Shown here: piece by piece, positions 13,625 through 62,819 of the stretch
Layout: each line of letters starts with the position of its first letter
Numbering within the stretch: position 1 is the stretch's first letter
Source: Chamaea fasciata
Taxonomy: Eukaryota; Chordata; Aves; Passeriformes; Sylviidae
Direction of reading: 5' to 3'
Length of the DNA: 64,000 nucleotides
Assembly: GCA_029207755.1 (NCBI GenBank)
Contig: JARCOQ010000006.1
Span: 68,174,093-68,238,092, forward strand
Made by a program: the position numbers and the translations under genes
The notes under the pieces: model-generated
Database searches by the model: none
Seen by the model: only the letters and a program-made list of their open reading frames with translations
Told to the model about the DNA's origin: nothing

Positions 13625-13639
13625 GGAGGACTGGAGGAT

Positions 13640-13947
13640 CTTATCCTAGGAGACCCTCTGGTTATAATGAAACTAGGGAACAAAGGAAAAGAAATGGAAT
13701 TTTGGTAGACACAGAAGCAACATATTCAGTGTTAAATAAAGCTTTAGTACCAATAACAGATGATTATGTCATGGTAAAGGGGGCAACTGGCCAATCTGAA
13801 AGAGCATACTTTTGTAGACCACTGAAATATAAACTTGGGAAACAGTGGGGAATTCACAAGTTTTTATACATGTCCAGTGCTCCATCAGCACTTTTGGGTA
13901 GAGATTTACTGGAGCAACTGGAGGCAAAAATAATTTTTAAAAACTGA
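13640..13947 (+). pseudogene. pro: ERV-A protease fragment
   Basis: A retropepsin-like segment contains LVDTEATYSVL at about 13702-13735 and LLGRDLLEQL near its end. The expected active-site triplet is Asp-Thr-Gly, but here it reads Asp-Thr-Glu, so the catalytic glycine is lost. It is not in frame with the preceding gag. Confidence 0.8.
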
Positions 13948-23315: not shown

Positions 23316-24500
23316 TGCAGGGGGAAAATGGGCCACGGAATAACAGAACCAATATGATTCCAACAGAAGCCGTTTATTGTTTACATTACATGGCAGATAT
23401 AGATTCTAGGTCTACTGTCCACATGGGCACGCAGCTCTGGGTTGGTGTTGGGAGTTAGGTTTTTTCCTTCTTTCGCTAAAGAATTTTTTCCTCATAAGTT
23501 ACCAAGGAGACCAAGTGTTGGATACTTGAGAGTACTTAACCGAAACAAAGAGGTGGACAAAGGTGGAAGGGGGAGATAAAGCAGGTAAAAGACAGAGCTT
23601 GAGGCAGCTGCGGGCTCTTCTTTGTCCAGCGTTTGGGGAGAGAGAGAACGGCTGTTGCTGGCTGGAAGAGTTTCACTGTGGCCAAAGGGATCCAGTCCTG
23701 GGAAATCTACTACCACCGGTTCGGCCTGAATCCTGAGTTTTCCCTGCCACCCGCGGGAACTGGGCTGGCTCTGCCTCTCCTTCGGCTTCTTCGGTGCTGC
23801 TCCTCTTGCTACAGTGTGACCCTGCACCCCCTGCCCTGCCGGGACACCCTGCCATCCCAGCTACCAGCTCGGTAGTTTCAGCTTGGTGCTCTGAGGAACC
23901 TGCAGGGACGCCGAAACCAAACTGCCCTGGGTTTTGTGAAACAAAGCCCTCAAGGTTCTTGGTACTGTTGTCGTTTGTCATTAATGCTGTAGTTGTTTGG
24001 TGGGTTTTTTTTTTTTTTGTGTGTTTGTTTGCTTTGTAATACAGACTAGTAAAGAACTGCTATTCCTATTTCCCAAATCTTTGCCTAAGAGCCTCTGATT
24101 GTAATTTATAATTGAAAAAGAAAAAAAAGGGTGGAGGGGGGGGGTTTACACTCTCCATTCCAAAGGAAACTGCAGTTGTTTTTTTTTATTACCTGGCAGA
24201 AACCTGTCTTCCCAAACCAAGACAGTTGGCTAAGCTGCTTCGTCATGAGGCAGGCACACATCCTTCAGGACATCCAACTGGTCAAGCGTCCATCCTCACG
24301 TTGTACTTCCCGTATCTAGGGTTTACATTTTTTGCAGAGAGTTTCTCAGGCTCTCTTTTTATTTTTGATCCTGTTGTTTTCTCAGTAACCTTGACAAATT
24401 TCTGAGAGCTCTAACAACAAAACTGCAGGTGGTTTGATATTACTCACAACGAGTTTGGCTGGTGCATCAGAATGGCCTGTTATACAGATACATTGCTGCA
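23316..24500 (-). repeat. ERV-E 5' LTR, split by a solo LTR
   Basis: The outer parts, 23316-23445 and 24225-24500, align with the ERV-E 3' LTR, including a - strand AATAAA (plus-strand 23373-23378). The middle, 23446-24224, is a foreign solo LTR of family B. Confidence 0.8.
23441..24229 (+). repeat. Solo LTR of family B with GTTGG target duplication
   Basis: The 779-bp LTR (23446-24224) begins TGTTGGGAGTTAGG and ends AAACCAAGACA, like the LTRs at 26573 and 32533. It is flanked by perfect 5-bp direct repeats GTTGG at 23441-23445 and 24225-24229. A solo LTR results from recombination between the two LTRs of a provirus. It lies inside the ERV-E 5' LTR, so it is younger than ERV-E. Confidence 0.93.
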
Positions 24501-26572: not shown

Positions 26573-27332
26573 TGTTGGGGGTTAGGTTTGTTCCTTCTTT
26601 CTCTAAAGAATTTTTTCACCACAAGTTACCAAGGAGACCAAGTGTTGGATACTTGAGAGTACTTAACCGAAACAAAGAGGTGGACAAAGGTGGAAGGGGG
26701 AGATAACGCAAGTAAAAGACAAAGCTTGAGGCAGCTTCGTGCTTTTCTTTTTCCGGTGTTCGGGGAGACGCGTGTCTGCCGCTTCTCGAGGAGCTCAGCC
26801 GCCGCAAAGCACGCCGAGCGGAGAACGGCTGTTGCTGGCTGGAGGAGTTTCACTGTGGCCAAAGGGATCCAGTCCTGGGAAATCTACTATCACCGGTTCG
26901 ACCTGAATCCTGAGTTTTCTCTGCCACTCGCGGAAGCTGGGCCGCTTTTCTGCCTCGCCTTCGGCTTCTTTGGCGCTGCTCCTCTTGCTGCAGCGTGACC
27001 CTGCAACCCCTGCGCTGCCGAGACACCCTGCCATCCCAGCTACCAGCCCGGGACTTTTCCACTGTTTCAGCTTGGTGCTTTGAGGATCCTGCAGGGACAC
27101 CGAAACCAAACTGCCCTGGGTTTTGTGAAACAAAGCCCTCAAGGTTCTTGGTACTGTTGTCGTTTGTCATTAATGCTGTAGTTGTTTGGTGGGGGAGGGG
27201 AGTTTTTTTTGTGTTTGTTTGCTTTGTATTACATACTAGTAAAGAACTGCTATTCCTATTTCCCAAATCTTTGCCAAAGAGCCTCTGATTGTAATTTTAC
27301 CTAGCAGATACCTGTCTTCCTAAACCAAGACA
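26573..27332 (+). repeat. ERV-B 5' LTR
   Basis: 760 bp, starting TGTTGGGGGTTAGG and ending AAACCAAGACA. It aligns with 32533-33323. A CpG-rich middle (about 26750-26900) precedes a T-rich 3' part. Confidence 0.93.
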
Positions 27333-27337
27333 GATTT

Positions 27338-27355
27338 TGGCGCCCAACGTGCGGC
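27338..27355 (+). promoter_or_regulatory. ERV-B primer binding site, tRNA-Lys1,2 type
   Basis: TGGCGCCCAACGTGCGGC differs at one base from the complement of the tRNA-Lys1,2 3' end used by spumaviruses and some other retroviruses. It lies five bases after the LTR. Confidence 0.85.
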
Positions 27356-27459
27356 TTGAAGGCACTGAGAAAAGAAAAAGGAAGAGAAATAGCAGTTCTT
27401 AACTAACCTAGTGCTTTCTTTTGTGTGTGTTGGATATAAAAACCTCATTAAGCTGCATC

Positions 27460-29238
27460 ATGTGGTCTAACTTAGCCTGGTTTGGGTGGCATGTAGTTGT
27501 GGCTGTATTCCTTCCATTTGCAGGCCCTTATCTAAACATGGGCCCTATAACTAAGGCTACTGTGACTGTCATCCAGTTTATTTTATAGCTTAATAAGGTG
27601 AAGAACTCATGGATTTTTAATTTCCTCTGGAAGGCAGGCACATGGATTCAGGGCTATCGTACACTAACTGTGTGTTTTTGGAGTTACTTTAACAATGGTA
27701 CCTACTGTGAGGAAATGACACCGGGGGAAGTTTCTTTTTCCCAACCCTTTACCCATCTCTTTGGGTCTGCCCCACCAGTTTTTGAAGGGTTTAAATCCTC
27801 TCTGAATGCTAATGATATCATACAATGGCTGGTGCTGCTAATAAGCATATTCTATTTAGCATTCAGAGATAAAGGAAGATTGACCTGGATAACCACCCTG
27901 ATACCTACCCCACAGAATAGGGATGATACCCCAGAGCCTGACTCTGCCCCACAGCCTGCCTCAGAAAGGACCCACCCGGACTGGGTTGAGGTTCTGGTAA
28001 AAGAGATGGGCCAAATGCTGAAGGAGTACATTTCCCCAGCTCATGAAAAACCCTCCCCCTGCCCCGAGAAGGCAGAGTCTGATAGTGCAGCAGTGGAACC
28101 CACAGACGTTACAACTGTCCAGGTTCCAGCTGAACCACAAGGGCAGCCACAGTCAGCAGCAGTCGCCCCTGTGGAAACAAGGAAGTGTAAAGTGAAATCG
28201 TCAGATCCTGGTATTAAGGATAAGAAAGGAGGGTCCTCACAGTCCACAGAAGAGCCACAGGTTGAGATCATCACTGAGTCCCTGACATATGAAAGTCTAC
28301 GTAATCTGCAAAAAGATATTGCACGACGAGGACGTGAGGCTTATACAGCCTGGCTACTTCGAGTCTGGGACCTTATGGGTACAGGTGTGCAACTGGATAG
28401 TGCTGAAGCAAGGAATTTGAGACCCTTGACCCAGGACTCAGGTATAAATCAAGTATTTGTAAGAGAGCAAAAGCCCCTTCCCCTTTGGGAACGACTTCTA
28501 ATGAGTGTGAGAGAGAGATTTGTCCACAGAAATAGAATGCAAGAGCACAACAATAGAATGCAATGGAAGACCCTTGAAGAAAGAATCCAGCAGTTGAGAG
28601 AAGTGGCAGTATTGGAAGTACTTTTTAGGAGGACCGGACAGCATGATAATGACCCCGACAAGGTTAAATGCACAGGGCACATGTTGTGGAATCTGGCAAC
28701 TCATGGACCATCCCAATACGCCACATTCATCGCAACAATTAATGCCGAGGATAACCGAGAAACAGTGGGTTCTGTTGCCAACAAGCTCAAAAATTATGAA
28801 AGTATGATCAGTAGCCCAATGCAGGCTCATGTCTCTGCGGTGGTGAAAGAACTCAAAGAGGAGATGAGGGAAATAAGAGAGGAGATGAGAAAGAACAGTT
28901 CCCATGTAGCACTGGTGCGAGTCACAGGCCCTAGAATCAGAGCCCAACATCCCCCAGCGAGAGAGAGAGGGTACACCCCTCGAGCTGACCTGTGGTTTTA
29001 TCTGCGAAACCATGGAGAGGACATGGGAGCATAGCACAAGAAACCTACTTCTGTCCTGGCAGCACGGGTACGTGAGCTCAAGAAGAGAAACGCTAACAGA
29101 GGGAGTTCCACTAGAATGAAAGTAGCCTCAGCCTCCCATGAGCAAGCTGCCAGGTATTACGGAGGTGAGAGTGCTGTGTCAGATTCCCTCGAAGGAACCT
29201 CTACCATGTATGTCCAAAAAGGGAATAATAACCAGTGC
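27460..29238 (+). pseudogene. gag: ERV-B gag
   Basis: The first ATG (27460) opens a hydrophobic leader of 42 codons closed by TAG at 27586-27588. The same frame continues to TAG 29032-29034, where ERV-C has Trp, and then to TAG 29239-29241 at the gag/pro border. A second hydrophobic segment (IIQWLVLLISIFYLAF, about 27817-27865) precedes a Pro/Glu-rich linker and a capsid-like core with WLLRVWDLMG. The end has PPARERGYTPR but no CCHC knuckle. It is related along its length to the ERV-C Gag at 41824-43353. Confidence 0.8.
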
Positions 29239-32200
29239 TAGAGGGGCCCTGCCTCTAGCCAGGAAGAGGCACGAGAAAATCGGGTTTTTTGGACTGTGTA
29301 GATTCGATAGCCTGGCACATCAGAGCCACAAAAATATGAATCTTTCGTAGATACTGAGTCGCAGTGTACTCTAATGCCATCGAGACATGTGGGGGCAGAA
29401 CCGATTTCCATTGCCGGGGTGACGGAAAGATCACAAGAATTGACTCTGGTTGAAGCCGAGGTGAGCCTGACCGGGAAGGAGTGGCAAAAACTTCCGATTG
29501 TGACCGGCCCAGAGGCTCCATGTATTCTGGGCATAGACTTCCTCAGGAATGGATATTATAAAGACCCTAAAGGACTCAGATGGGCTTTTGAAATAGCTGC
29601 TGTGGAGACAGAGAACATTAAGCAGTTGAACACCTTGCCGGGACTATCAGAGAACCCATCTGCAGTGAAACTCCTGAAAGTAGAAAAACAACAAGTACCT
29701 GTTGCCACCTCGACAGTGCACCATCGGCAGTATCGGACAAATCGGGACGCCGTGATCCCCATCCACAAGATGATCCGTGAGCTGGAGAGCCAAGGGGTGG
29801 TCAGCAAAACCCACTCACCCTTCAACAGCCCCATCTGGCCTGTGCGCAAGTCTGATGGAGAATGGAGACTGACTGTGGACTATCATGCATTGAATGAAGT
29901 GACTCCACCGCTGAGCGCTGCTGTGCCGGACATGCTGGAACTTCAGTACGAGCTAGAGTCCAAGGCAGCGAGGTGGTATGCCACTATTGACATTGCTAAT
30001 GCATTTTTCTCCATTCCTCTGGCTGCAGAATGCAGGCCTCAGTTTGCTTTCACCTGGAGAGGCATGCAGTACACCTAGAACCGGCTGCCCCAGGGGTGGA
30101 AACACAGCCCCACCATCTGCCATGGGCTGATCCAGGCTGCACTGGAGAAGGGTGAGGCTCCGGAACATCTACAGTACATTGATGACATCATTGTGTGAAA
30201 AAAGACTGCAGCTGAAGTGTTCGAGAAAAGAGAGAGAATCATCCAGATTTTGCTGAAAGCCGGGTTTGCCATCAAGAAAAGCAAAGTCAAAGAACCTGCC
30301 AGAGAGATCCAGTTCCTGGGAGTAAAGTGGCAAGATGGACGGCGGCAGATCCCCACTGAAGTAATTGATAAGATCACAGCAATGTCTCCACCGACCAGCA
30401 AAAAGGAAACACAAGCTTTCCTAAGAGCCATAGGTTTTTAAAAGATGCACATTCCTGAGTACAGTCAAATCGTGAGCCCTCTCTACCTAGTTACCCGCAA
30501 GAAGAACAATTTCCACTGAGGCCCTGAACAGCAACACGCCTTTGCCCAGATCAAGCAGGAGATTGCTCATGCAGTAGCCCTTGGCTCAGTCAGGACGAGA
30601 CCAAATGTGAAGAATGTGCTTTATTCTGCAGCCGGGAACAATGGTTTGTCCTAAAGCCTTTGGCAGAAGGTGCCAGGGGAGACCCGAGGCCGACCACTGG
30701 GATTCTGGAGTCGAAGTTACAGAGGATCTGAAGCCAACTACACTCCCACAGAGAAGATCTTGGCCGCCTATGAAGGAGTTCAAGCCGCCTCAGAAGTGAT
30801 TGGCACAGAAGCACAACTCCTCTTGGCACCCCGACTACCAGTGCTGGGGTGGATGTTTAAAGGAAAGGCTCCCTCCACGCACCATGCCACCAATGCCACA
30901 TAGAGCAAATAGACTGCCCTCATCACACAGTGTGCCCGTATTGGAAACCCAAATCACCCTACGATTTTAGAGATAATTACAAACTGGCCGGAAAGAGAAA
31001 ACTTCAGTCTCACGGACAAAGAGGAGCAAGAACAAGTAACACGAGCTGAAGAAGCTCCTCCGTACAACCAACTGCCTGCAGAAAAAACACACTACGCTCT
31101 TTTCACTGACGGTTCCTGTCGCATCGTGGGAATGAACCGTAAGTGGAAAGCAGCCGTATAGAGCCCCACACGACAGGTTGCAGAAGCCACTGAAAGAAAA
31201 AGAAGATCAAGTCAGCTTGCTGAACTCAAAGCTGTTCAATTAGCCCTTGACATTGCTGAAAGAGAGAAGTGGCCAAAGCTCTACCTCTACACTGATTCGT
31301 AGATGGTAGCCAATGCTCTGTGAGGCTGGCTAGAAAGGTGGAAAAAGGCCAACTGGCAGCATAGAAAAAAAACAATCTAGGCTGCTAATGAATGGAAGGA
31401 CGTTGCCACTCGTGTAGAGAAGCTGCCTGTGAAAGTCCGCCATGTAAATGCCCATGTTCCCAAGAGTCAGGCTAATGAAGAACACCAAAACAACAAGCAA
31501 GTAGATCAGGCTGCCAAGATAGAAGTGTCAAAGATAGATTTAGATTGGCAACACAAGGGAGAGTTGTTCCTAGCCCAATGGGTCCATGATGCCTCGGGTC
31601 ATCAGGGCAGAGATGCCACCTATAAGTAAGCCCGAGACCGAGGAGTAGATTTAACCATGAACAGTATTTCTCAAGTTATCCATGACTGTGAGACATGTGC
31701 TGCAATCAAGCAAGCCAAGCGGGTGAAGCCCTTATAGTGTGGTGGGCGGTGGTCCAAATATAAATATGGGGAAGCCTGGCAGATTAACTACATCACCCTT
31801 CCCCAAACCCGCCAGGGCAAGCGTTATGTGCTAACCATAGTGGAAGCCACCACTGGATAGTTGGAGACCTACCCTGTGCCTCATGCTACTGCCCAGAACA
31901 CCATCCTGGGCCTAGAAAAACAAGTCCTGTAAAGACATGGCACCCCTGAGAGAATCGAGTCGGACAATAGGACTCATTTCAAGAATAGTCTTATAAGCAC
32001 CTGGGCTAGAGAACATGGCATTGAGTGGGTGTACCATATTCCTTATCATGCACCAGCGGCCGGAAAAGTTGAACAGTGCAATGGCCTGCTTAAAACTACC
32101 TTGAAGGCACTGGGTGGAAGAACCTTCAAGAACTGGGATATTAATTTAGCAAAGGCCACCTGGTTGGTGAACACTAGAGGCTCCACCAACCGAGCAGATC

Positions 32201-32421
32201 CTGCCCAATCTAAGCCCTTGCAAAAGACAGACAAAGATAAGGTTCCAGTGGTACACATGAGAGGTATGCTGGGAAAAACTGTTTGGATTAATCCTGCCTC
32301 CAGCAAAGACAATCCGATCCGTGGGGTTGTCTTCGCTCAGGGACCAGGTTGCACCTGGTGGGTGATGCAAAAAGATGGAGAGACCCGATGCATACCTCAA
32401 GGGGACCTTGTTTTGAGGTGA
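29239..32421 (+). pseudogene. pol: ERV-B pro-pol, many Trp-to-stop changes
   Basis: Protease (about 29340-29560) has VDTESQ where ERV-C has VDTGAQ. Reverse transcriptase (about 29700-30440) retains YIDDIIV at 30174-30194. RNase H has FTDGSC (about 31103-31120). Integrase shows the HDCETC zinc-site end and a core in which the first catalytic Asp is Asn (WQINYI), while SDN and the Glu region remain. Stops at 29299, 29308, 30076, 30196, 30439, 30517, 30652, 30901, 31159, 31321, 31378, 31627, 31735, 31858 and 31930 all sit where ERV-C has TGG. The frame is never shifted. Confidence 0.9.
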
Positions 32422-32509
32422 ACTACCCATGAGAATGTAGCTGTATCCATATTTGCATATATATATGTGTATTTTTAACAGTTAAAACTCAATGTAATAT
32501 GTTGGTATG

Positions 32510-32532
32510 AGAAAAAAATTCGGGGTGGATAA
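32510..32532 (+). promoter_or_regulatory. ERV-B polypurine tract
   Basis: A purine-rich run ending CGGGGTGGATAA lies directly before the 3' LTR. ERV-C has the same GGGGTGGATAA at 46611-46621. Confidence 0.65.
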
Positions 32533-33323
32533 TGTTGGGGGTTAGGTTTGTTCCTTCTTTCTCTAAAGAATTTTTTCCCCACAAGTTACCAAGGAGACCA
32601 AGTGTTAGATACTTGAGAGTACTTAACTGAAACAAAGAGGTGGACAAAAGGTGGAAGGGGGAGATAACGCAAGTAAAAGACAAAGCTTGAGGCAGCTTCG
32701 TGCTTTTCTTTTTCCGGCGTTCAGGGAGACGCGTGTCTGCCGCTCCTCGAGGAGCTCAGCCGCCGCAAAGCACGCCGAGCGCCGAGCGGAGAACGGCTGT
32801 TTGCTGGCTGGAGGAGTTTCACTGTGGCCAAAGGGATCCAGTCCTGGGAAATCTACTATCACCGGTTCGACCTGAATCCTGAGTTTTCTCTGCCACTCGC
32901 GGAAGCTGGGCCGCTTTTCTGCCTCGCCTTCGGCTTCTTTGGCGCTGCTCCTCTTGCTGCAGCGTGACCCTGCACCCCCTGCGCTGCCGGGACATCCTGC
33001 CCCTGCCTGCTGGGACACCCTGCCATCCCAGCGACCAGCCCGGGACTTTTCCACTGTTTCAGCTTGGTGCTCTGAGGATCCTGCAGGGACACCGAAACCA
33101 AACTGCCCTGGGTTTTGTGAAACAAAGCCCTCAAGGTTCTTGGTACTGTTGTCGTTTGTCATTAATGCTGTAGTTGTTTAGTGAGAGAGAGGAGTTTTTT
33201 TGTGTTTGTTTGCTTTGTATTACATACTAGTAAAGAACTGCTATTCCTATTTCCCAAATCTTTGCCAAAGAGCCTCTGATTGTAATTTTACCTAGCAGAT
33301 ACCTGTCTTCCTAAACCAAGACA
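32533..33323 (+). repeat. ERV-B 3' LTR
   Basis: 791 bp, matching the 5' LTR apart from scattered substitutions and small insertions. These include a repeated CGCCGAG unit near 32775 and about 25 extra bases of CCTGC-rich sequence near 33000. It carries a run of G-to-A differences near 33177-33195. Confidence 0.93.
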
Positions 33324-33894
33324 CCAACTTAGAGTGAAAAAGAAATAGAGAAAAAAAGAAATACAGTTAAAGTATATAGAGAGAAAAAAGAGAAAAAATA
33401 GAGTTAGAGAGAAGTAGGGAAATAGAGAGAAAGAGGGAAATAGAAACAGAGATGGAAGCAGTGAGAAACAGAAACAGAGAGACAGAGTTAGACAGACAGA
33501 CAGAAATCAAGTTAGAAATGAAAAAGTAATGTGAGGAATAGACTGAAAAGTAAAGTGAGAAGCAAACCAAGAAATATAGTGAAAAAATGACTAAACCACA
33601 CCAAAGAAAGACAGGAGCCAAGAGGGGGAGGGGGGTATCTGTTACAGTTGATTCAACTTTATTGAATGAATTTTTATTATTTACACTTCAGCAAAACACA
33701 TGGAAACAATGTATACAAATGCAAGTACAGATACAAAAGCAAGTACAGATACAATCCGTATATACACTGGTAAAAGTCCAATTTCCATACAGAGCAATAC
33801 ATGGAAATGCAGCAGCAAATGCAAATACAGAACAATACAGGGCAATACAATCCAAATACATATTAACACAACATAAAAATAAATGTATAAATTT
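33324..33894. other. Purine-rich low complexity and unresolved repeat
   Basis: 33331-33590 is almost all A and G with GAGAAA-like words. 33640-33890 has CAAGTACAGATACAAA twice in tandem and - strand AATAAA words, perhaps the end of a decayed - strand LTR. Confidence 0.5.
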
Positions 33895-36800
33895 TAAAAT
33901 CCCATTATAACTAACCCCAAACCCCATATATTCTAAACAGAAACTTCCTCCAAAGCAACTATTTCAAAAACCTCAAATAAACAGTTAGAATAACTACTAC
34001 AAAACCAAAAAACATTAAACAATTAAACACCTTACCTAAACTATCAAAAAACCCACCTGCAATAAAACTTCTTAAAAAAACCCCACAATGAATACTAATT
34101 ACCACTTCACCAATAAACCACCAACAATACGAAACGACTCAAAATACTGTAATTCCCATCCACAAAATACTCCATAAACTAACTAACAAAACAATAATCA
34201 ACAAACCCCATTCACCTGTGGAGGCTGGTAAGCCAAGTAAAAACTTAGCCATGCTCCCCTGGAGAAACTTACCCGTCAACAACCCCATTTAACCTATACA
34301 AAAAAAAAAAAAAATTGACTATAAACCATCATACCTTAAACAGAGTAACTCCACCATTAAACACTACTGTACCAAACGTATTAAAACTCCAATGCAAATT
34401 AAAATCCAAAACAACACAATAATATGCCGCTATTAACATTACCAAGATGTTTTTCTCCACTCCTCTAACAACCGAATACAAAGTTTGATTTACCTTCACC
34501 TAAAAAAATGTACAACGCATCTAAACCAAACCATCCCAAAAAAAACCACGCTCCTACTGTCTCCCATCAACTAATCCAAACCACACACACAACCCCCCCT
34601 CCAAAACAGCTACAATACATCCGTATATAAAAATACAACAAAAATACTTTTAAAAAATCATCCAAATTCTTCTGAAAGCAGATTTTACCATCATGAAAAA
34701 CAAAATTAAAAAACCTACTCAAAAATGCAACTCCTAACAATAAAATAACAAAACAAACAGCATCAAGTTCCCACCAATATCATCAATAAAATCACAATAG
34801 CTCCACCAACCAACAAAAAAATCTTAGCAACCTACAGAAAAGTTCCAAACCACCTCAAAAATAATCTACACTAAAACACGACTCCTCCTAACACCTCAAA
34901 TCAATACTAAAATAAATACTAAAATAAATGTTCAAAACAAAAATTTAACCCACCACACCAATGCCACATAAAACAAGTTACTCTCATTACCCACACCCAT
35001 ATAAAAAATCTAAATCCTCCTAAAATCTTAAAAATAATTACAAATTAACCCAAAACAAAAAACTTTAATCTCACTAACAAAAAAAAACCCCAACAAATAA
35101 CACAAACTAAAAAAAAGCTCCACCATAGAATGAACTACCAGCAAAAACCCCTCACTTTTCAGTAACAACTCTTGTCACATCATAAAAATGAAACAAAAAT
35201 AAAAACCAACCATATAGAACACCACACAATAAATCACAAAACCCACTAAAAATAGTCAAACCAACTCACTAAACTCAAAACCATGCAAATGACCCTAAAC
35301 ACGATTTAAAAAAATAACCAAAACTCTACATATACACTAATTCATGAATAATAACCAATACTCTAAAAAATTAACTAAAATAAGCCCAAACTAATTCACA
35401 ACACACAACCCCCCAATCTAAATGGCCAAAAAATAAAAGACCATCACTACCCAAATTTAAAAAGTAATTTTAAAAGACCACCAAATCAAAACCCATGTTC
35501 CCAAAAATAAAACCAATAAAAACAACAAACAAATCAAACTACAAAAATGAAGACATCACAAGTAAACTTAACAGCACCAAAAAAATGATTCCTAACTCAA
35601 TAAATCCATAATGACTGAAACCATCAAAACCAAAATGCCACCTATAAATAAACACAAAAACAAAAGATAAATTTAACCATAAATTATATTTCCCAAATGA
35701 TCCATAACTATAAAACATACACTACAATCAAATCAAATAAATAAACCCCCTATAGTAAACAATAATCCAAATATAAATTAAAAAAAAATATCAAATTAAA
35801 TACATCACACTACCTCAAACCCACCAAAACAAACACTGCATACTCACAATAATAAAAATCACCACAAAATAATAAAAAGGTACCCGATACCTCATGCTAT
35901 AGCCCATACAATCCTAAATCTTAAAAAACACAACATTAAATAAATAGACCGTATGCCTTATAACCAACTACAAACAAAACAATATAATTATTAAAAACGC
36001 TAAAAAAAAAGCTTTCAAAAATTAAAAACTACATCTAACAAAAGCCACCTAATCAATTAGCACCCCAAACTCCACTAAACAAACCCTACCCAATCTGAAC
36101 CTCTACATACAATAAAAAAAAAACAAAATCCCAATCACACATGACAAAAGCCTGTTTAAAAAAACCTACTGAAATTAATTCTACCTCAAATACAAACAAA
36201 CCCATCCATAAAATAATCTTTACTCAAAAACCAAATTACCCATAATAATACTACCCTGGGTTGAAGTATATTCTATCACCATCTTCATGAACTGTTGAGA
36301 CCAGGTGAGGCAGTGCTCCCTGCCTCCTCCACCCTGGCTTATCTTCTGTTAATGGGCCCATCAGCACCTTTGCTACACAGCTCACAGATAACCCCCTTCT
36401 GGACTACCTCCTGTTAATGGGCCCATCAGGCCTTATCACATGACTCACCATCCCATTGTGAGATGCTCTGCCTAGAGGGAGGAACCAAGCATTCCAGCCT
36501 GGATATAAGCTGAGACTCTGAACACCAGAGGGGCGCTTACCCACTGGATTCCCAGAGGACCCGAGCTACCAGACCTTTCTACAGGATCACTGCTTCAGGA
36601 AGACCACCTCATCTGGACTGCTTCCATCACTCCGCTCAGGTTGTATTCTGACTCTGTCAGTGGTCTTTTGTATTATTGCATCTATTTTATTTTACTTTCT
36701 TTTTTTTCCTATGAAATTGTATCTCTGACTTGGAGCCTCTCATTTGTTTTGCTTTCAAACCACTACAAATAGAAAAAAAATACACAATAAATCACAAAAA
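33895..36800 (+). mobile_element. pol: ERV-D: G-to-A hypermutated ERV-B-like pol copy
   Basis: From about 33895 the sequence follows ERV-B from about 29491 (end of protease) through reverse transcriptase, RNase H and integrase to about 32355, but with A at almost every G. Blocks such as 35041-35100 and 35761-35820 contain no G at all. Two deletions of about 350 bp (near 34820) and about 160 bp in total are present. The match breaks at 36251 for an inserted LTR, and weak similarity resumes after 36767. No LTR of its own is visible. Confidence 0.9.
36247..36772 (+). repeat. Solo LTR of family C inside ERV-D
   Basis: 516 bp (36252-36767) matching the ERV-C LTRs, starting TACCCTGGGTTGAAG (usual start TGTCCTGGG) and ending ACCACTACA. 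The flanks AATAC and AATAG suggest a 5-bp duplication with one change. Its base composition is normal, unlike the G-poor host element. Confidence 0.9.
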
Positions 36801-37080
36801 AATATAAATACCACTATAAATACCACATATAAATACCACTATTTACTAAGTAGCACTACCACTATCTATATTAAAAAAACCAACAACAAACAAACAAACT
36901 TAAAATATATCAACTTCGGCATTAAGCGGACGATATACAATAAAAAACAAATTGTCTTAAAATTATATTATAATACGATATCCCCTATTGTCTACTTTAT
37001 GCCAAAACATAAATTCTATAACTTTAAAATGAAAAAATAGAAGTCTTTCAACACACAATTTATACACAATATTCACATCC
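36801..37080. other. G-poor spacer
   Basis: A+T-rich and G-poor sequence that I cannot align to ERV-B. It may be decayed ERV-D 3' sequence or part of the next element. Confidence 0.35.
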
Positions 37081-37617
37081 TCCCCCAAGTTCTCTCTCAA
37101 CTAAACTAACACAAACAACAAAAAAAAAAAAATCCATTTTTTACTTTTTTAACTACTAATTTATTAGCTAAAACAAAAAAAGTTTCCCAAAACTGTAACT
37201 ACTTCTTCTTCTAAAACTATTCAACTTTACTCCAATTCAAAAAACCAAACTACCACCAGAAAATGCCACACTGCAGCCCAAAAGACCCATGCCACACCCC
37301 AGCTGCAAAAAGAAATCAAACCATACCTGGAAAAAAACCCCTCTAAGTCTATCGATTTTTTTCTCCACAACAAAGCCATTTATTATCTAACATTCATTCT
37401 TTTTCCCCTCCTTCCACCTACATATACGCTTGTTAAATTAACAATAAATATATCTATATTTAACAATAAATATATTGTTAAATAAACAATCTTCCCCTCT
37501 TTTTCTCCAAAAAACTCTTTAAAAACCTTTTTTAAAAAAGAGACTGAAACCTGCCTTCCATTAAAAAACACACTCATTTCAAAACATTTCCTCCCAGTTT
37601 GTCTCAAACCGAGACAC
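37081..37617 (-). repeat. Possible minus-strand LTR
   Basis: On the - strand the segment begins TGTCTCGGTTTGAGACAAAC, a start resembling the other LTRs here, and contains AATAAA words near 37380 and 37445-37490. The other end is not defined and no target duplication was found. Confidence 0.3.
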
Positions 37618-38544
37618 TTTCTAAGGTCTGGATTCAATTCCAGTGCACCAGAACCAAATCGATCTGCTCTGGCTCTGAAAACATCAGCGACACCAAACCC
37701 AGTCGCCAGCACGAAACTCCTCACAGCTCTGCCCCAAAAGCCCAAGTGTGCATTCAGAGGAAATGATCACAAACAGCTCAGCCAACAACAGACGCACGGG
37801 ACACTGTCAACTTGGACGGGCAATTAACTCCGCAATGGAAAAACGCGAGCCTGAAGTTCTCACGGGAGAGTGCAAAATGTATTGAACACTGTTTCGAGAA
37901 GGCGCCCACATCACTGCTCAAAGGCGTGGCTCGGTTAAAGAGCAATACCAACAAAGCCCACGGACAAAAAGCCTGCGGGGTCGGCGTTGGGTTTTTTCCC
38001 CCTCTTTTCCTTTCAGGGACCTTTGCAAGCAGACTCTGGAGCTGACAGGCCACAAGCGTCCCCCCAGTGCCCTTTGCCGGGACTCGCTCCCGGGCTGGCG
38101 CCGTTCCACGGCACGGGGGAACCGGGGGGACCACGCGAGCCCCGGGAGCGGCGGCACTCGGCACCCGGGAGCGGCCTCCCGCTCCCGGCAGTGGAAAGAG
38201 TGCGGCTCCCGGCAGGAAAGCCGCTCCTGCGGCAGGTAGGGGCGGCTTCAGGCCGGGACCCGCCCGCCCAGCGGCACCGGGCTGAGGGGGCCCCGGCAGC
38301 GCCCGGGACGGGCAGAGAGCTCCGTGCCGCGGCTCCCGCCTGCCGGCCCGGCAGAGCTCGCCTCAGTTCCGCACGGCTCACACCGGCACGGCTCTGTCAG
38401 TCCCTGGTGGCAGCCCAGCCGCGACATTCCCGTTCCACCTCAGCAATTCCCCAGGGGATGGATGCCAGGAGTGCTCCCACGCAATGCATTTGGTGCCAGG
38501 GCACGGGCAGAAGCGCCCTCAAGTGCAGCGGCACGGCCTGATTT
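37618..38544. other. Spacer with CpG island
   Basis: 37980-38420 is G+C rich with dense CG dinucleotides and a GCAGGTAGGG donor-like site near 38233. Several overlapping ORFs occur on both strands, none with a recognisable domain. It could be a promoter of an unannotated non-coding transcript. Confidence 0.45.
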
Positions 38545-39055
38545 AAACCCTTCAAATGCTGGGAAAACTGGCGTTTCCTTCAATTGAACCCCTGAAACTG
38601 AGGCAACAGCAGGTGTTTACCTCAACTGAAGCCAATACAATGGCAAATAAAGAAGTTCTCCCGTTCAATTTAATCTCCAAAAATAGCAGGAAAAGGTTTT
38701 TTTCCTCAAGACTCTCAAATGATGGGAAAGGGGGGATTTTTACCTCAATTCAAACCCTTACTAAGCAGGGACAAGAGGGCTTCCTCCTCAATTTAAACCT
38801 TAGGATTATGAAAATGGGGGGTTTACCCTCAATTCACGCCCATAATACAAGATCAATATTTCCCCCCTTCCATATAAAATAGAACACAGGGATTCCCTAT
38901 TAACTGATACCCCTAACACCATGGAAAATCCAGGTTTTCCTTCAATCAATACCCTTACAATCCCAGGTGAAGGGGGATTCCCCCCAGTTCAGACACAGAC
39001 TGTAATGGAAGAGGAGTTGCTTCCCTCAGTTTAAACTCCTTTTGTCCTCATAACC
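38545..39055. repeat. Degenerate tandem repeat, units of about 60-65 bp
   Basis: About eight diverged units share a G-rich half and a half like TTTACCTCAATTCAAACCC. Clear examples begin near 38555, 38715, 38770 and 38812. Confidence 0.6.
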
Positions 39056-40950
39056 CCTATTTTTTTCTGGGGGCACTGGGGAGGGATTGGCAAGATTAAA
39101 TCAAAAGGGAAAAGGAGAAAGATCCCCCCTTGCATATCCATGCACCAGCTCACCTGCTCAGCTGCTGCTGCCTGGCACAAAGGTTTGTCCCTCGGCACCT
39201 CCTTTAAGCAGTGCTCTGCATCCAAGTGCATCCAGGTGCTCCCCAGACCCTGTGAGATGCTCTCACCGTCGTTCCATGAGACAGCCCCCAGGAGTCCACT
39301 ATAAACCCCTCTCTTCCAGCAGCTCCATACAAATGTGAATTGAGGAAACCCCTCCTTAAGCAGCCTCCGGCAGGAGCTGCCTTCTCCTCACCCTCACAGC
39401 TCACACCTGGGGCTGTTGACAGTCTTCTCAGCCACCGCCCTGTACGGCGGCTGCTCCTTTGGGCGCCGTGGCCTCGCACTCGAGCCCGGACGTGTCCCTT
39501 TACACTCTTAACCTCCTTCGCCCGTCCCCGCTATTTACAGGATCATCCCCGCTCGCCCCTTCCCCGCCCGGCAGAGCCCGCGCGTCACCCAGCGGCGGGC
39601 GAGGGGGCAGCGGCAGTACCGCGCTCTGCCCACAAGGCGGCAGCACTGCCGCCGAGCTCAGCCCGGGGTTCCCCCACTCTCTGGGGACAGGCAGAGAAGA
39701 GGCACAAGTTGCCGGAAAGCCTTTTCTTTTTCCTTCACGCCCAGCATCTGTTCTTATGGGTTCAGGGCACTTGATCGGTTCATTCCTAGATAAAAACGTT
39801 ATGGTATTATTTTCAAAACTACTACCCATCTCCACTCAGTTTCCTACATTCCTGTATGCAACAGAGTGAAAAAAGAGAGGGTTTCTTTCCAAATGAATTT
39901 AAATTCATATTCTTTGCCAATACCTATAAAAACGAAAAACTTGACAGGTTTTAGTGTTCCACACTCACCCCTCCCTGTGAATTTTCTGGCAGCCCTCTGG
40001 GGGAGGGCACCCAGCATGACCCCTCCTCATTCTCCACCCACCTGCTCCTCTACTGCAGCGTGCCTCCCTCTCCTGGGGACGTTCGGGTGCCCCAAATGAC
40101 ATCAGAGTCCCCACGGCTCCACCCCCTCCCCCAGTCGTGGCTCCTCACCCGCAGAGAAGGCTCAGAACGGGTCAAACTGCCCTGGACAGCAGCACATTGC
40201 TTTATTCAAGCCCATTCCATGTGTACACCCCCCCCCAGAAAGGGGCTCTGCTGCAACAAGAAACGGGGGCAGCCCCCAGAAGGCCTGAAGTTCCTCCCCA
40301 GCCCCGCTGTCACAGGCCACCGGCTGCCCCACAGCAGCTCCAGCCAGCAGCAGCAGGGGACTCCTCCCTTCCCTACGAGGCTGCAGCACTCATGGACCTG
40401 TCTGGCAGTTGGATGTGAGCACCAGGGACCGACGACGAGGGGCAGAAAGAGGGAGTGGCAGCAGAGACGACACAGGAAGAAAAGGAAGAACGGGGTGCAG
40501 GATGAAATTGGAAAAAAACAAAATCCCAAAACCTGGGATGGGCAGCACGACAGAGAGGGATTAAAAAAGAACAGGAACAAGGACCAGGACACAAGGATCC
40601 AGTGAGAAACTGGCACAGGAAGCACCACGTGAGATATACCCACTGAGAATATAAGGAACACAAGTGAGGCATGCAGAAGGACAGAGAAAAAGAGTGCTAA
40701 ACATACAGCAAGGACGGAGGGATACAGTGACAAAGAGGGAAACAAGGACAGAGAGATGAAATGACCACGGCACGTGGTTGTGGGGAAAGGTGGGCAAGGC
40801 GCTCCTCGCTCTAGTCACTACAGCAAGCACAGCTTCCCTGGAGTTTCACACACAGCATCTCTTCCAAGCTCTATAGGTGAACAAACAGGTACTCTAGCAT
40901 ATCCCTCCTTTGTACTTTGGGCAGCAGACCCACCAGGAGGAACAGCAATC
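39056..40950. other. Intergenic with CpG patch and purine-rich tract
   Basis: 39430-39690 is CpG rich. 40430-40770 is a purine-rich degenerate repeat (words like ACAAGGACAGAGAG). A - strand AATAAA lies near 40202. No gene is called; the ORFs look compositional. Confidence 0.45.
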
Positions 40951-40955
40951 CAAGG

Positions 40956-41474
40956 TGTCCTGGGTTGAAGTATATTCTATCACCATCTTCATGAACTGTT
41001 GAAACCAGGTGAGGCAGTGCTCCCTGCCTCCTCCACTCTGGCTTATCTTCTGTTAATGGGCCCATCAGCACCTTTGCTACACAGCTCACAGATAACCCCC
41101 TTCTGGACTACCTCCTGTTAATGGGCCCATCAGGCCTTATCACATGACTCACCATCCCATTGTGAGATGCTCCGCCCAGAGGGAGGAACCAAGCATTCCA
41201 GCCTGGATATAAGCTGAGACTCTGAACACCAGAGGGGCGCTTACCCACTGGATTCCCAGAGGACCCGAGCTACCAGACCTTTCTACAGGATCACTGCTTC
41301 AGGAAGACCACCTCATCTGGACTGCTTCCATCACTCCGCTCAGGTTGTATTCTGACTCTGTCAGTGGTCTTTTGTATTATTGCATCTATTTTATTTTACT
41401 TTCTTTCCTTTTTTCCTATGAAATTGTATCTCTGACTTGGAGCCTCTCATTTGTTTTGCTTTCAAACCACTACA
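40956..41474 (+). repeat. ERV-C 5' LTR
   Basis: 519 bp from TGTCCTGGGTTGAAG to ACCACTACA. A TATA-like TATAAG lies at 41208-41213. A 19-bp word CTGTTAATGGGCCCATCAG is present twice, at 41050-41068 and 41115-41133. Confidence 0.95.
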
Positions 41475-41478
41475 TTTT

Positions 41479-41496
41479 TGGCGCCCAAGTGGGGCA
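41479..41496 (+). promoter_or_regulatory. ERV-C primer binding site, tRNA-Lys1,2 type
   Basis: TGGCGCCCAAGTGGGGCA equals the tRNA-Lys1,2 primer site with one base missing. It starts five bases after the LTR. Confidence 0.82.
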
Positions 41497-41552
41497 CAAG
41501 GCACTGAGAAGTCAGAATTACAATTTTGTATTGAAGAAGACACCTGTTCGCT

Positions 41553-41852
41553 ATGATGCTCAACATGCTTACATGTGTCTTATATCTATCTCTCTATATT
41601 TTTCCACAACTGGGGCACTATCTGCCAGTCTTAATGCTCCTGTGTAGACCATGGTATGGTACTAAAATTGCTTTATTGGTCTGTTATGTCCATTGCTTGA
41701 TAAACTCTGAGGCAATGAACATCATTCAGAATATACACCCAGTTTTGTTTTCTTGTTCTGGTCTAGGATGCTACATCTGGGTCCTCAACAATCTCACCCA
41801 GCCCCTGTGGGGAGGGGTGAAGAATGATTTTTTTCCAGCTTTTCAGGCATGA
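41553..41852 (+). pseudogene. ERV-C hydrophobic leader frame of gag
   Basis: A 99-codon frame rich in Leu, Ile, Tyr and Cys with at least two potential membrane segments overlaps the start of the larger gag frame by 29 bp in another phase. Its end (LNNLTQPLWGG) resembles the ERV-B gag frame at about 27745-27775 (FSQPFTHLFG), where leader and Gag core share one frame. The split in ERV-C is therefore probably a frameshift near 41840, not two separate genes. Confidence 0.55.
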
Positions 41853-43353
41853 CACAGCAGTTTTTGAAAATATGGAGTACCCTCTGGATGCCAAGGACAG
41901 CATGATGTTGTTGTTAGTCCTGCTTTGTCTTCTCTGCACGGCCCGCACCATGCTTAGAATCAAAACACTACCTAGTGTGATACAGTGTGTTCTGAAGGAA
42001 GAGGAAGAGGGAAAAAGAAGCAGAGCAACAGCATCAGTGTCTACACAGAGTGTCACAGAGGCGAAAAGAACCAAAGGCAAGGCAACAGTGTCCTCATCTA
42101 CACAGACCGTCACAGAGGAGAAAGAAGCCAAAAGTGAGGCAACAGTGTCCACATCTATGCAGACTGTTACAGAGGAGAAAGGGACCAAAGGTGCCATCAG
42201 CATCTCCACACAAACCGTCACCAAACCGGAACAGCCTAAACCAGTAGCAGTTGCTTCCGTTCAGAAGAAGAAATCAAGGACCAAATCAGTCCGCTTAGTG
42301 ACTGATGAGAGTGCAGCAGGACCTTCACACCCAGCAGAAGAGACAGAGCCAGAAATCATCACTCGCTCTCTATCTCTGGGTGAGCTGTGTGACCTGCGAA
42401 GGGAATTCACCTGCCAGACCAACGAGTCCATCCTGACCTGGCTACTCCGCATCTGGGACACTGCAGCCAATGACACCATTCTGGATGGAAGTGAGGCCAG
42501 GCAACTGGGATCGTTGTCCAGGGATGTGGTCATTGACCAGGGGATTGGGAAAAGCCAAGAACCTCTCAGCCTCTGGCAGCGACTGCTAACAAGTGTGAAG
42601 GATAGATACCTTTGTAAAGAAGACCTCCAAGTGCACCAAGGAAAATGGAACACAATAGAACAAGGTATCCGATGCCTGAGGGAATTGGCTGTGTTGGAGA
42701 TCATTTTTTCAGAAGATGAGAGATTTCCTAAAAACCCAGATGGTGTCCAGTGCACATCACGGATGTGGTTGAGATTTGCATGGCTTGGACCTGAGATGTA
42801 CTCACGTTACCTGGCAACACTGCAATGGAGGGAAGGTGAGGACAGGGTAGGTGTCTTGGCTAATAAACTAAGAATTTACGAGGACACTGTCACTGCCCCA
42901 GTTCGTACCCATGTCTCATCTGTGGAAACAAGACTGGCTGAGCAAGTCCGGAGCTTGATTGAAGAAGGCCATCAGAAACTGAAAAAAGAACTTAAGGAAG
43001 AAATTTACCGTATCCCACCAGAGCCGATGAGAGTCTCTGCCATTAGGAGCAGGCGTCCCCCAGCCAGGGAGAGAGGATACACACCACGAGGTAACCTCTG
43101 GTCTTTTCTTTGGGAGCATGGAGAAGACATGAGGAAGTGGGATGGAAAACCTACCTCCTCCTTAGCAGCCCGGGTACGTGAACTGAAAAGAGAAACACCT
43201 ACCACAAAGAGCCCATCTAGAATCAATGTTGCTCCGGTCTCTCGTGCACAGAACTCCAGACGGTACAGGAATGATGATATGACTGATCCTCTTGAAGGAA
43301 CCTCAGAAACATATTTACAAGAAGAGAGCAATGTATGCCATGACCAGGAATAG
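41824..43353 (+). CDS. gag: ERV-C gag core frame
   Basis: A 509-codon open frame. The first 45 residues include a hydrophobic segment (MMLLLVLLCLLCTA). A Thr/Ser/Glu-rich region follows with three to four imperfect repeats of about 20 residues (TVSSSTQTVTEEK-like, about 42035-42230). The capsid-like core has LTWLLRIWDTA and RLRELAVLEIIF-type helices, and the tail has PPARERGYTPR. No CCHC zinc knuckle is present, as in spumaviral Gag. The frame ends at TAG 43351-43353, after which protease continues in the same frame. Confidence 0.8.
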   Translation: MIFFQLFRHDTAVFENMEYPLDAKDSMMLLLVLLCLLCTARTMLRIKTLPSVIQCVLKEEEEGKRSRATASVSTQSVTEAKRTKGKATVSSSTQTVTEEKEAKSEATVSTSMQTVTEEKGTKGAISISTQTVTKPEQPKPVAVASVQKKKSRTKSVRLVTDESAAGPSHPAEETEPEIITRSLSLGELCDLRREFTCQTNESILTWLLRIWDTAANDTILDGSEARQLGSLSRDVVIDQGIGKSQEPLSLWQRLLTSVKDRYLCKEDLQVHQGKWNTIEQGIRCLRELAVLEIIFSEDERFPKNPDGVQCTSRMWLRFAWLGPEMYSRYLATLQWREGEDRVGVLANKLRIYEDTVTAPVRTHVSSVETRLAEQVRSLIEEGHQKLKKELKEEIYRIPPEPMRVSAIRSRRPPARERGYTPRGNLWSFLWEHGEDMRKWDGKPTSSLAARVRELKRETPTTKSPSRINVAPVSRAQNSRRYRNDDMTDPLEGTSETYLQEESNVCHDQE

Positions 43354-43381
43354 GGGGGCCCTGCCTCTAGCCAGGTAGAGG
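43351..43381 (+). promoter_or_regulatory. Candidate gag/pro stop-readthrough signal
   Basis: TAG (43351-43353) is followed by a G run and a 6-bp hairpin, CCTCTA (43364-43369) with TAGAGG (43376-43381) and loop GCCAGG. Protease continues in frame beyond it. ERV-B has TAG at the same place and a 5-bp version of the stem. The function is inferred by analogy with gammaretroviral readthrough. Confidence 0.5.
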
Positions 43382-46300
43382 AAAGGGACAATCGGATCTA
43401 CTGGACTGTGTGGATCCGATGGCCTGGAACATCTGACCCACAAAGAGATACGTCTCTGGTTGATACCGGTGCTCAGTGTACTCTGATGCCGTCAAGGTAT
43501 GTGGGAGCGGAACCCATTTCCATTTCTAGCATGACAGGAGGATCCCAGGAGCTGACGGTACTGGAAGCTGAAGTCTAACTGGGAAAGAATGGCAGAAACA
43601 CCCCATTGTGACTGGTCCAGAGTCCCCATGCATTTTGGGCATAGACTATCTCAGAAATGGGTATTTCAAAGACCCAAAAGGATACCGCTGGGTTTTTGGC
43701 ATAGCTGCTCTAGAGACAGAAGGCATCAGACAACTCAGTACCTTGCCTGGACTCTCAGACGACCCCTCTGCTTTGGGACTACTAAAAGTTGAAGAACAAC
43801 AGGTGCCGATCGCCCAAGCAACAGTGCACCGTCGGCAATATCGCACCGACAGAGACTCTGTGGTCCCCATCCATAAGATGATTCGTGAGCTGGAGAGCCA
43901 GGGGGTGGTCAGCGAGGCTCGTTCACCCTTTAATAGCCCTATATGGCCCGTGCGTAAGTCCAGTGGAGAATGGAGACTGACAGTGGATTACCGTGGCCTG
44001 AATGAAGTCACACCACCACTGAGCGCTGCCGTACCAGACATGTTGGAGCTTCAGTATGAGCTGGAATCCAAGGCAGCAAAATGGTATGCGACCATTGATA
44101 TTGCAAATGCCTTTTTCTCCATTCCTCTGGCAGCAGAATGCAGGCCTCAGTTTGCCTTCACCTGGAAGGGCATGCAGTACACCTGGAACCGACTGCCCCA
44201 GGGGTGGAAGCACAGTCCCACCATTTGCCATGGACTGATCCAGGCTGCACTGGAAAAGGGTGAGGCTCCAGAACACCCGCAATACATTGACGACATTATC
44301 GTGTGGGGAAACACAGCAACAGAAGTCTTTGAGAAGGGAGAGAAGATCGTTCAGATTCTCCTGAAGGCCGGCTTCGCCATCAAGAGGAGCAAAGTCAAGG
44401 GACCTGCTCGAGAGATCCAGTTTCTGGGAGTGAAGTGGCAAGATGGACGGCGTCAGATTCCCACCGAAGTCATCAATAAGATCACAGCAATGTCTCCACC
44501 GACCAACAAGAAGGAAACACAAGCTTTCCTAGGTGCCATAGGCTTTTGGAGGATGCACATTCCCGAGTATAGCCAAATTATGAGCCCTCTCTACCTGGTT
44601 ACCCACAAGAAGAATGATTTCCACTGGGGCCCAGAACAGCAGCAAGCTTTTGCCCAGATCAAGCAGGAAATCGCTCATGCGGTAGCCCTTGGCCCAGTCA
44701 GGATGGGATCAGAGGTGAAGAATGTGCTTTACTCTGCAGCCGGGAGCCATGGTCTGTCATGGAGCCTTTGGCAGAAGGTGCCGGGTGAGACTCAGGGACG
44801 ACCACTGGGATTCGGGAGCCGAAGCTACAGAGGATCCGAAGCCAACTACACCCCCACAGAGAAGGAAATCTTAGCCGCCTATGAAGGAGTCCAAGCCGCC
44901 TCAGAGGTGATTGGTACTGAAGCACAGCTGCTTCTGGCACCTCGACTACCAGTGCTGGGGTGGATGTTCAAGGGAAAGGTTCCTACCACACATCACACCA
45001 CCGGCACCACGTGGAGCAAACGGATCGCCCTGATCACACAAAGTGCCCGTATTGGAAACCTGAATCACCCTGGGATTCTGAAAATTATAACAAACTGACC
45101 TGAAGGTGAGACTTTTGGATTATCATCTGAAGAAGAGGAGGAGCAAGTGACACGGGCCGAGGAAGCCCCACCATATAACGAGCTACCAGAGAGTGAGAGA
45201 CGATATGCCCTTTTCACCGACGGTTCCTGCCGAATTGTAGGTGCTAACCAGAAATGGAAAGGTGCTGTATGGAGCCCCACACGACGAATTGCACAAGCTA
45301 CCGAGGGAGAAGGTGGATCAAGTCAGGTCGCAGAGCTTAAAGCTGTCCAGCTGGCTTTGGATATTGCTGAATGAGAGAAGTGGCCGAGGCTCTATCTCTA
45401 CACTGACTCGTAGATGGTAGCTAATGCTCTGTGGGGATGGCTGGACCGCTGGAGAAAGGCCAACTGGCAGCCCCATCTGGGCTGCTGAGATTTGGCAGGA
45501 CATCACCACCCGAGTAGAAAGGCTGGCCGTGAAAGTTCGACACGTGGATGCGCACGTACCCAAGAGTTGAGCTAATGAAGAACATCATAACAACGAGCAG
45601 GTGGATTGAGCTGCCAAGGTGAAAGTATCACAGGTTGATCTAGACTGGCAGCACAAAGGAGAATTATTCCTAGCTCGTTGGGCTCATGATGCCTCTGGTC
45701 TTCGAGGGAGAGATGCAACATATCGATGGGCTCGTGACCGAGGTGTGGACATTACTATGGACAGCATCTCCCAGGCTATCCATGACTGCGAGACCTGTGC
45801 TGCGATCAAACAGGCCAAGCGAGTGAAGCCTCTGTGGTATGGTGGACGATGGTCAAAGTATAGGTATGGGGAAGCCTGGCAAATTGACTACATCACCCTT
45901 CCCCATACCCGCCAAGGCAAGCGCTACGTGCTCACCATGGTGGAAGCAACCACTGGATGGCTGGAGACCTACCCTGTGCCTCATGCTACTGCCCGGAACA
46001 CCATCTTGGGCCTGGAAAAGCAGGTCCTGTGGAGACATGGCACCCCTGAGGGAATTGAGTCAGACAACGGGACTATTTCAAATATGGCCTCATAAGCACT
46101 TGGGCCAGAGAACACGGAATAGAATGGATATACCATATCCCATATCATGCACCATCTGCCGGGAAGGTGGAACGCTGCAATGGACTGCTTAAAACTACCC
46201 TTAAGGCACTTGGTAGAGGGACCTTCAAAAACTGGGAACTGAACTTAGCGAAGGCCACCTGGATGGTCAATACCCGAGGGTCCATCAATCGAGCTGCTTC

Positions 46301-46532
46301 TGCCCAGTCTGAATCCTTGCACAGAGTGGATGGAGATAGGGTGCCTGTGGTACACATGAGAGGTATGTTAGGAAAGACTGTTTGGATTAATCCCACCTTG
46401 GGCAAGGGCAGACCCTTCTGTGGGGTTGTCTTTGCTCAAGGACCTGGTTACACTTGGTGGGTGATGCAAAAGGATGGGGAAACCCACTGTGTACCACAAG
46501 GAGACCTTATTTTAAGTGAGAACTGTGTGTAA
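43354..46532 (+). pseudogene. pol: ERV-C pro-pol
   Basis: Retropepsin motif LVDTGAQCTLMPS (about 43456-43494) is intact, but a small deletion near 43575 shifts frame before ILGIDYL. The long frame 43608-45098 carries reverse transcriptase with YIDDIIVWG (about 44284-44310). TGA at 45096-45098 replaces TGG seen in ERV-B. RNase H (FTDGSC, about 45217) follows, with TGA at 45372 and TAG at 45411. Integrase (45619-46532) has HDCETC, the first Asp in WQIDYI, the second in SDNGT and the Glu in KVERCNGLL; a 2-base deletion near 46070 breaks it. Confidence 0.9.
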
Positions 46533-46606
46533 GTTTTCATTGTGTATATATGTGTGTGCGTAGTTTAAGGAAGGTATTGATTTGGGATGATGTAGATGGT
46601 AATAGA

Positions 46607-46621
46607 ATAAGGGGTGGATAA
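46607..46621 (+). promoter_or_regulatory. ERV-C polypurine tract
   Basis: ATAAGGGGTGGATAA directly precedes the 3' LTR and shares GGGGTGGATAA with ERV-B. Confidence 0.65.
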
Positions 46622-47141
46622 TGTCCTGGGTTGAAGTATATTTTATCACCATCTTCATGAACTGTTGAAACCAGGTGAGGCAGTGCTCCCTGCCTCCTCC
46701 ACTCTGGCTTATCTTCTGTTAATGGGCCCATCAGCACCTTTGCTACACAGCTCACAGATAACCCCCTTCTGGACTACCTTCTGTTAATGGGCCCATCAGG
46801 CCTTATCACATGACTCACCATCCCATTGTGAGATGCTCCACCCAGAGGGAGGAACCAAGCATTCCAGCCTGGATATAAGCTGAGACTCTGAACACCAGAG
46901 GGGCGCTTACCCACTGGATTCCCAGAGGACCCGAGCTACCAGACCTTTCTACAGGATCACTGCTTCAGGAAGACCACCTCATCTGGACTGCTTCCATCAC
47001 TCCGCTCAGGTTGTATTCTGACTCTGTCAGTGGTCTTTTGTATTATTGCATCTATTTTATTTTACTTTTCTTTCCTTTTTTCCTATGAAATTGTATCTCT
47101 GACTTGGAGCCTCTCATTTGTTTTGCTTTCAAACCACTACA
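46622..47141 (+). repeat. ERV-C 3' LTR
   Basis: 520 bp. Read by eye against the 5' LTR it differs by C/T near 46642, C/T near 46780, G/A near 46840 and one extra T near 47067. Confidence 0.95.
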
Positions 47142-62600: not shown

Positions 62601-62819
62601 TCACTAACAGGGGACTCCGGAGAAGATCTGCTAATTACTCCACCTCCCTCGCATTGTACTCAGTCATGGTGATGACACTGATGCTTGAAGCAGAGCAGAA
62701 GCAGTAAGGCAATAATTAAAAGTACAGGACATAACGTAAAACACGACAGTCCCCACTGGAAGCGATACTTCTCTGATTCTCTCATTTCTTCCCCTCAACT
62801 GAGCCCTCCGGGCACTATC

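Follow-up and report, generated by a model that had tools for sequence, protein, structure and literature searches.

An ancient and extreme case of G-to-A editing in a passerine provirus, later multiplied by duplication

The window analysed here (the whole stretch of 64,000 nucleotides from Chamaea fasciata) harbours a retroviral copy, named H, which is a real, extreme and ancient case of a known process, the G-to-A editing of retroelements, and which was later multiplied by duplication. Its G has been converted to A strand-specifically and nearly completely, the conversion stops at the border of the provirus, related elements have normal G, and further G-poor copies in the genome have in common with H a host flank that has diverged as much as the edited block. 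Very probably, a class III-like provirus was edited on its minus-strand cDNA, presumably by an enzyme of the AID/APOBEC family, integrated once and was later duplicated.

Organization of H and its neighbours

Three related pol copies are found in the window, all on the plus strand: H, the edited pol/provirus copy (33889 on), and the related proviruses E1 and E2, which are 78% identical to each other over 3.5 kb. The lightly edited E1 (26573..33323) possesses LTRs at 26573-27332 and 32533-33323 and the target repeats CCAGC/CCAAC; E2 (40956..47141), which served as G-normal reference, possesses LTRs at 40956-41474 and 46622-47141 and the target repeat CAAGG. H begins with an edited, G-poor pro/pol part (33889..34215), where the left end of the copy is truncated: neither a 5' LTR nor a target repeat was seen for H, and 33324-33902 matched none of the ERV parts tried. 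In another copy of the genome (L032), the edited stretch extends further left, over a part like 29034-29600 of E1 (gag-end/pro region). An unedited insert of 59 bases follows in H (34216..34274; G at 14 of 59 positions), which is missing from E1 and E2 in the alignment, and then the edited pol with the RT, RNase H and integrase regions (34275..36251), recognised by its alignment to E1/E2 and by its codons.

Nested in H is an unedited solo LTR of the E2 family (36252..36767), around 98% like the LTRs of E2 and with 5-base flanking repeats (AATAC/AATAG) that were read off the sequence. Behind it the G-poor stretch resumes, passing from pol towards the 3' LTR of H (36768..36952, by comparison with the genomic copy L065) and through the body of this LTR (36953..37590, its start taken from the alignment) to around 37590. 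The final 26 bases of the LTR (37591..37616) and host flank with normal G (37617..39424), pieces of which are common to other copies of the same integration, are situated to the right, likewise on the plus strand. The range 33895-36251, to which the initial annotation had confined the phenomenon, is thus edited, but the true limits lie near 33889 and near 37590, with the solo LTR inside.

Concerning the class of the retrovirus, the best chains for the RT among solved structures are 7o0h, 7o24, 7o0g (Pr125Pol), 7kse and 7ksf, which we take to be foamy virus pol chains. The last pol ORF ends at 32421 in E1 (LTR from 32533) and at 46532 in E2 (LTR from 46622), i.e., within around 110 bases of the LTR, and no env lies between. 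By its RT match, the element appears nearer to class III (ERV-L/foamy-like) than to 'ERV-B', the label it had first been given; the likeness to ERV-L elements (RT near foamy pol, no env in E1/E2) is one of best structure matches and gene order. A search of viral contigs found no relative.

To the left of H, 33324-33888 is purine-rich and then A-rich, and its minus strand partly resembles, by eye, the end of a transcript (AATAAA). ORFs at 13220-15883 resemble, also by eye, pieces of another retroviral gag-pol. The minus strand carries a BMP3-like ORF (BMP3 exon) at 53836-54768, which is 95% identical to that of Sinosuthora webbiana, the other 119 relatives listed (of 598) being at most 89% identical; this places the host among the passerines, perhaps close to sylvioid songbirds. 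At 62815-63273, likewise on the minus strand, the likely first exon of BMP3 was recognised by eye only, with no Pfam match; the ERV cluster sits downstream of BMP3.

Extent and direction of the G-to-A change

H was aligned to the pol of E1 (29491-32424) and of E2 (within 43500-46530) with no distinction made between G and A, the real letters being counted afterwards; apart from the 59-base insert, the alignment contains several deletions. Three-way counts refer to 33903-36240 and leave out gap sites and sites at which E1 and E2 differ. At the 474 sites with G in both relatives, the letter in H is A 412 times, G 32 times, C 21 times and T nine times, whereas T is found at only 50 of the 464 sites with C in both; the reverse directions amount to 25/486 (A>G) and 42/372 (T>C). 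Pairwise tables, in which sites differing between E1 and E2 are kept, agree with this (G>A 497/578 from E1 and 530/624 from E2; C>T 70/560 and 91/560, respectively). The near-total G-to-A change that had been proposed for this ERV pol copy is therefore borne out, with G>A and C>T far from equal and the excess of G>A large in all contexts.

Outside CpG, and counting only sites at which H has A/G or C/T, G>A amounts to 364/391 and C>T to 43/369 (odds ratio 102, Fisher p 5e-129). CpG decay, already considered insufficient in the initial annotation, does not account for this, and Gs within CpG were changed to a similar degree (27/28). The G content is 4.6% in 33903-36240 vs. 25.1% in 29491-32424, and the blocks 35041-35100 and 35761-35820 indeed have no G. 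When the whole window was scanned in 300-base windows with a step of 50, those containing no more than 18 G, or no more than 18 C, were found only within 33801-37600.

Reverse transcriptase error under unbalanced nucleotide pools can also give plus-strand G>A, and could do so in principle without a deaminase; we regard it as very improbable here, since the conversion is nearly complete over around 3.1 kb while C>T stays at background. An ancestral G-poverty of the virus lineage, for which the many G-poor copies described below might speak, has next to no probability: E1, E2, L065 and the E1 family (with 28% G in the block in its copy L003) have normal G, as the first reading of the sequence had implied, and of 21 Trp codons of E2, 17 appear as TAA in H, whose 552 compared codons no longer include any for Gly or Trp.

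Many of the Gs present in H may be later A>G changes, as their share is similar at ancestral G (32/444) and ancestral A (25/447; p 0.34). Corrected for A>G, the editing level of H is around 98% (bootstrap 95-102%). Across up to nine edited lineages, G is found in at least five at 14/186 ancestral-G vs. 6/156 ancestral-A sites, from which the same correction gives, by arithmetic on these counts, around 96%. Every context was changed in H (GA 112/117, GC 91/103, GG 95/97, GT 56/66). G was kept more often in GY (22/169) than in GR (7/214; p 4e-4), these kept Gs being partly later A>G changes; the A>G baseline of H is also uneven, GC measured against its own baseline yields p 0.056, and H is saturated. 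No clear gradient of editing was seen along H pol.

Comparison of the 3' part of H with the LTRs of E1 and E2 and with the LTR at 23446-24142 gave no clear margin over shuffled controls; the 3' LTR was recognised via L065, a copy on another contig with normal G (25% in pol, 20% in the LTR), which aligns with H from the end of pol through the post-pol stretch and the LTR to 37616. Relative to L065, the ratio of G>A to kept G is 137/7 in pol, 38/2 after pol, 89/15 in the LTR body, which retains slightly more G than pol (p 0.012), and 0/3 in the last 26 bases. On the right side, the editing thus stops between 37590 and 37616; the host flank at 37618-38000 exhibits 23% G, and at this border the edits are confined to the reverse-transcribed element. 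Within 37591-37616, all three aligned Gs are kept, compared with 15/104 in the LTR body (p 0.004).

A different division of this region, in which 36850-38956 would be inserted sequence and 38957 would mark a polypurine tract with an LTR free of editing, is ruled out by L055-L058, in which 36816-39415 is one continuous stretch.

G-poor copies in the genome and their probable single origin

A search of the genome (1.19 Gb) with H yielded at least 39 other places (best 40 of 633 candidates scored; matching places elsewhere in the genome bear L-numbers). All 25 whose composition was examined among these 39 are G-poor, with 3.7-5.3% G in 19 of 19 and 5.4-10.5% in 6 of 6, and a G-poor state private to the window copy is ruled out. 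In the parts that match, three places added by the LTR search (L052-L054) contain 2.9-5.6% G; L053 and L054 reach 20% and 17%, respectively, when the alignment is extended, only the end of pol matching there. Editing can consequently not be regarded as an event of one copy only, as it had been at first. Other G-poor copies had also been named as potential evidence for an ancestral G-poor state; to the letter they exist, but they have the same integration flank and go back to one edited provirus. These places do not count as independent: L036-L050 seem to form a single group, and the four members compared pairwise are 98.3-99.6% identical. Comparisons with L032-L050 used only a restricted block, longer alignments running into unrelated flanks.

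The common flank is found in several pieces. L052 carries host flank 37617-37695, from the end of the LTR on, L055-L059 carry pieces of flank 37823-39415 together with LTR pieces and no pol, and L032, L033, L035 and L036 carry pieces of flank 38956-39424 and have a common deletion of 36850-38956. The K2P distance from the window copy is 0.139-0.193 in the flank (seven comparisons) and 0.152-0.180 in the block (six comparisons). The same host flank, together with equal divergence of flank and block, implies that one provirus was edited once and then duplicated. Residual Gs are also common: G predominates in the other copies at 5/14 sites where H has G vs. 10/172 sites where H has A (p 0.002). 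Of the derived changes that are not of the G>A type, 20 are common to H and others, 61 are confined to H and 30 to the others. At ancestral-A sites, derived G common to H and others (0/4 vs. 6/152) speaks neither for nor against a single origin. The CT-site identity of H is 85-88% to other G-poor copies and 88% to E1, i.e., not higher, which counts against it. Since neither this identity nor the balance of derived changes, in which those of H only outnumber the common ones, favours a single origin, it rests on the common flank, the common residual Gs and the common derived changes.

If neutral rates of 2-3.3 per site per billion years are assumed, the window copy would have split from the others around 20-50 million years ago, and the editing would be older. 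This age is compatible with slow strand-biased mutation at the host locus after integration (transcription- or methylation-linked), with no burst of editing. Such a process is nevertheless highly improbable: the G content of the host flank is normal, the loss of G ends 26 bases inside the LTR end, and Gs outside CpG were changed as much as those within it. Moreover, the differences between H and six copies in the block sum up to similar numbers of A>G (80) and G>A (64), with no clear strand bias since the duplication.

Concerning the duplication, the copies on contigs C9 and C16 match each other at 99.4% for another 5 kb adjoining the block, which points to a segmental duplication. Of 11 listed places, 4 are situated no more than 280 kb from the end of their contig. 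A segment (L036, L044, L074 and L075) close to where C9 and C16 end is duplicated at around 99% and carries the edited block; similar further places exist on small contigs, and E1-type LTRs are nested in some copies.

Mechanism, enzyme and known systems

E1 constitutes a second, lighter and younger case. Its family comprises at least 39 other close copies (best 40 of 1441 candidates scored), and changes in E1 were counted within 29700-33500 at sites where 29 family copies agree among themselves: G>A 72/852, C>T 5/762, T>C 2/720, A>G 0/854 and eight transversions. G>A is concentrated in GG (44/227) and GA (20/233), with few changes in GT (4/149) and GC (1/193), i.e., 64/460 in GR vs. 5/342 in GY, and of 12 in-frame stops among the E1 pol codons compared, 10 correspond to Trp in E2. 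The LTR pair of E1 has A in the 3' LTR for G in the 5' LTR at six places and the reverse at one, too few to use. E1 is thus a case of APOBEC-like editing with GG/GA preference, independent of H. AID has its hotspot at WRC (PMC5391955), which is GYW on the plus strand; E1 exhibits 0/159 changes there vs. 64/586 elsewhere (p 2e-7). This context speaks against AID as editor of E1, whereas H is saturated and uninformative in this respect.

G>A on the plus strand, sparing C and ending where the provirus ends, is the pattern expected from deamination of the minus strand before plus-strand synthesis, and this reading of the initial annotation remains the best explanation for a change that is not CpG decay, not equal on both strands and confined to the provirus. 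The source would have been a passerine retrovirus that was class III-like and lacked env. During reverse transcription, a host enzyme of the AID/APOBEC family would have deaminated its single-stranded minus-strand cDNA until nearly every C was U, and plus-strand synthesis would then have fixed the changes as G-to-A along the provirus. Having integrated once in the germline, the edited provirus would later have been copied with its host flank by segmental duplication, partly near contig ends, which would have given rise to the many G-poor copies. The window copy would be one of these, later interrupted by the solo LTR and now lying between younger proviruses.

A point against the proposed reading is that H is edited at GC and GT, contexts hardly touched in E1; hits per GC site are 2.46 in H vs. 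0.0052 in E1, such that an around 470-fold exposure would be needed if both had the same editor. A more permissive enzyme, stalling of the plus strand or several rounds of editing may have been the cause. Repeated rounds could have been stepwise, a partly edited copy being recopied with the proteins of intact relatives and re-edited each time, with the last copy duplicated; lightly edited copies such as E1 do become fixed, and the contexts changed in H would agree with it. The 25 G-poor copies, however, span 3.7-10.5% G with no intermediates among them (a search with H favours G-poor copies), and we hold stepwise saturation to be unlikely. Only tentatively do we suggest that songbird ancestors had a deaminase, or allowed a very long exposure, by which practically every minus-strand C was converted in any context, clearly beyond the GG/GA-preferring activity seen in E1, and that DNA almost free of G was tolerated, integrated and duplicated.

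H constitutes a germline record of editing near completion in a lineage that, like birds in general, is not known to possess APOBEC3. It can be calibrated against a relative free of editing and a neighbour edited only lightly. Duplication of the locus after the editing makes it possible to distinguish true escapes from mutations that arose later, and the host flank provides a means of dating the event. Which bird enzyme edits retroviruses, and in what context, thereby becomes testable.

The literature searched, which comprised neither most subscription papers nor Knisbacher and Levanon 2016 itself, yielded no avian provirus edited to this extent and no edited provirus spread by segmental duplication. 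Human APOBEC3G hypermutants of HIV and HBV are similar to the present case in the deamination of minus-strand C and, as regards E1, in the GG preference; PMC2877740 gives up to 50 of 58 cytidines edited in HBV sequences and an ex vivo editing range of 7-98% for APOBEC3G. Those hypermutants, however, are short amplicons from infected tissue or cells, and within one cycle GC and GT are rarely edited by hA3G (PMC3310730), whereas H is edited in these contexts, too. In the lizard, G>A editing in a non-mammal is attributed to APOBEC1, with 85 of 32,872 L1 elements affected and none significant among LTR elements according to PMC3880073, where an APOBEC1 homologue is also marked in the zebra finch; this case differs from H in that it concerns L1 elements. 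Most similar are the avian LTR retrotransposons of Knisbacher and Levanon 2016, in which, as cited in PMC6523648 and PMC6497032, strong APOBEC G-to-A editing, clustered on the plus strand, was found, strongest in oscine passerines. Editing in birds is thus known, whereas the saturation and the later duplication are new: H is nearly completely edited in all contexts, and its edited locus was multiplied by duplication.
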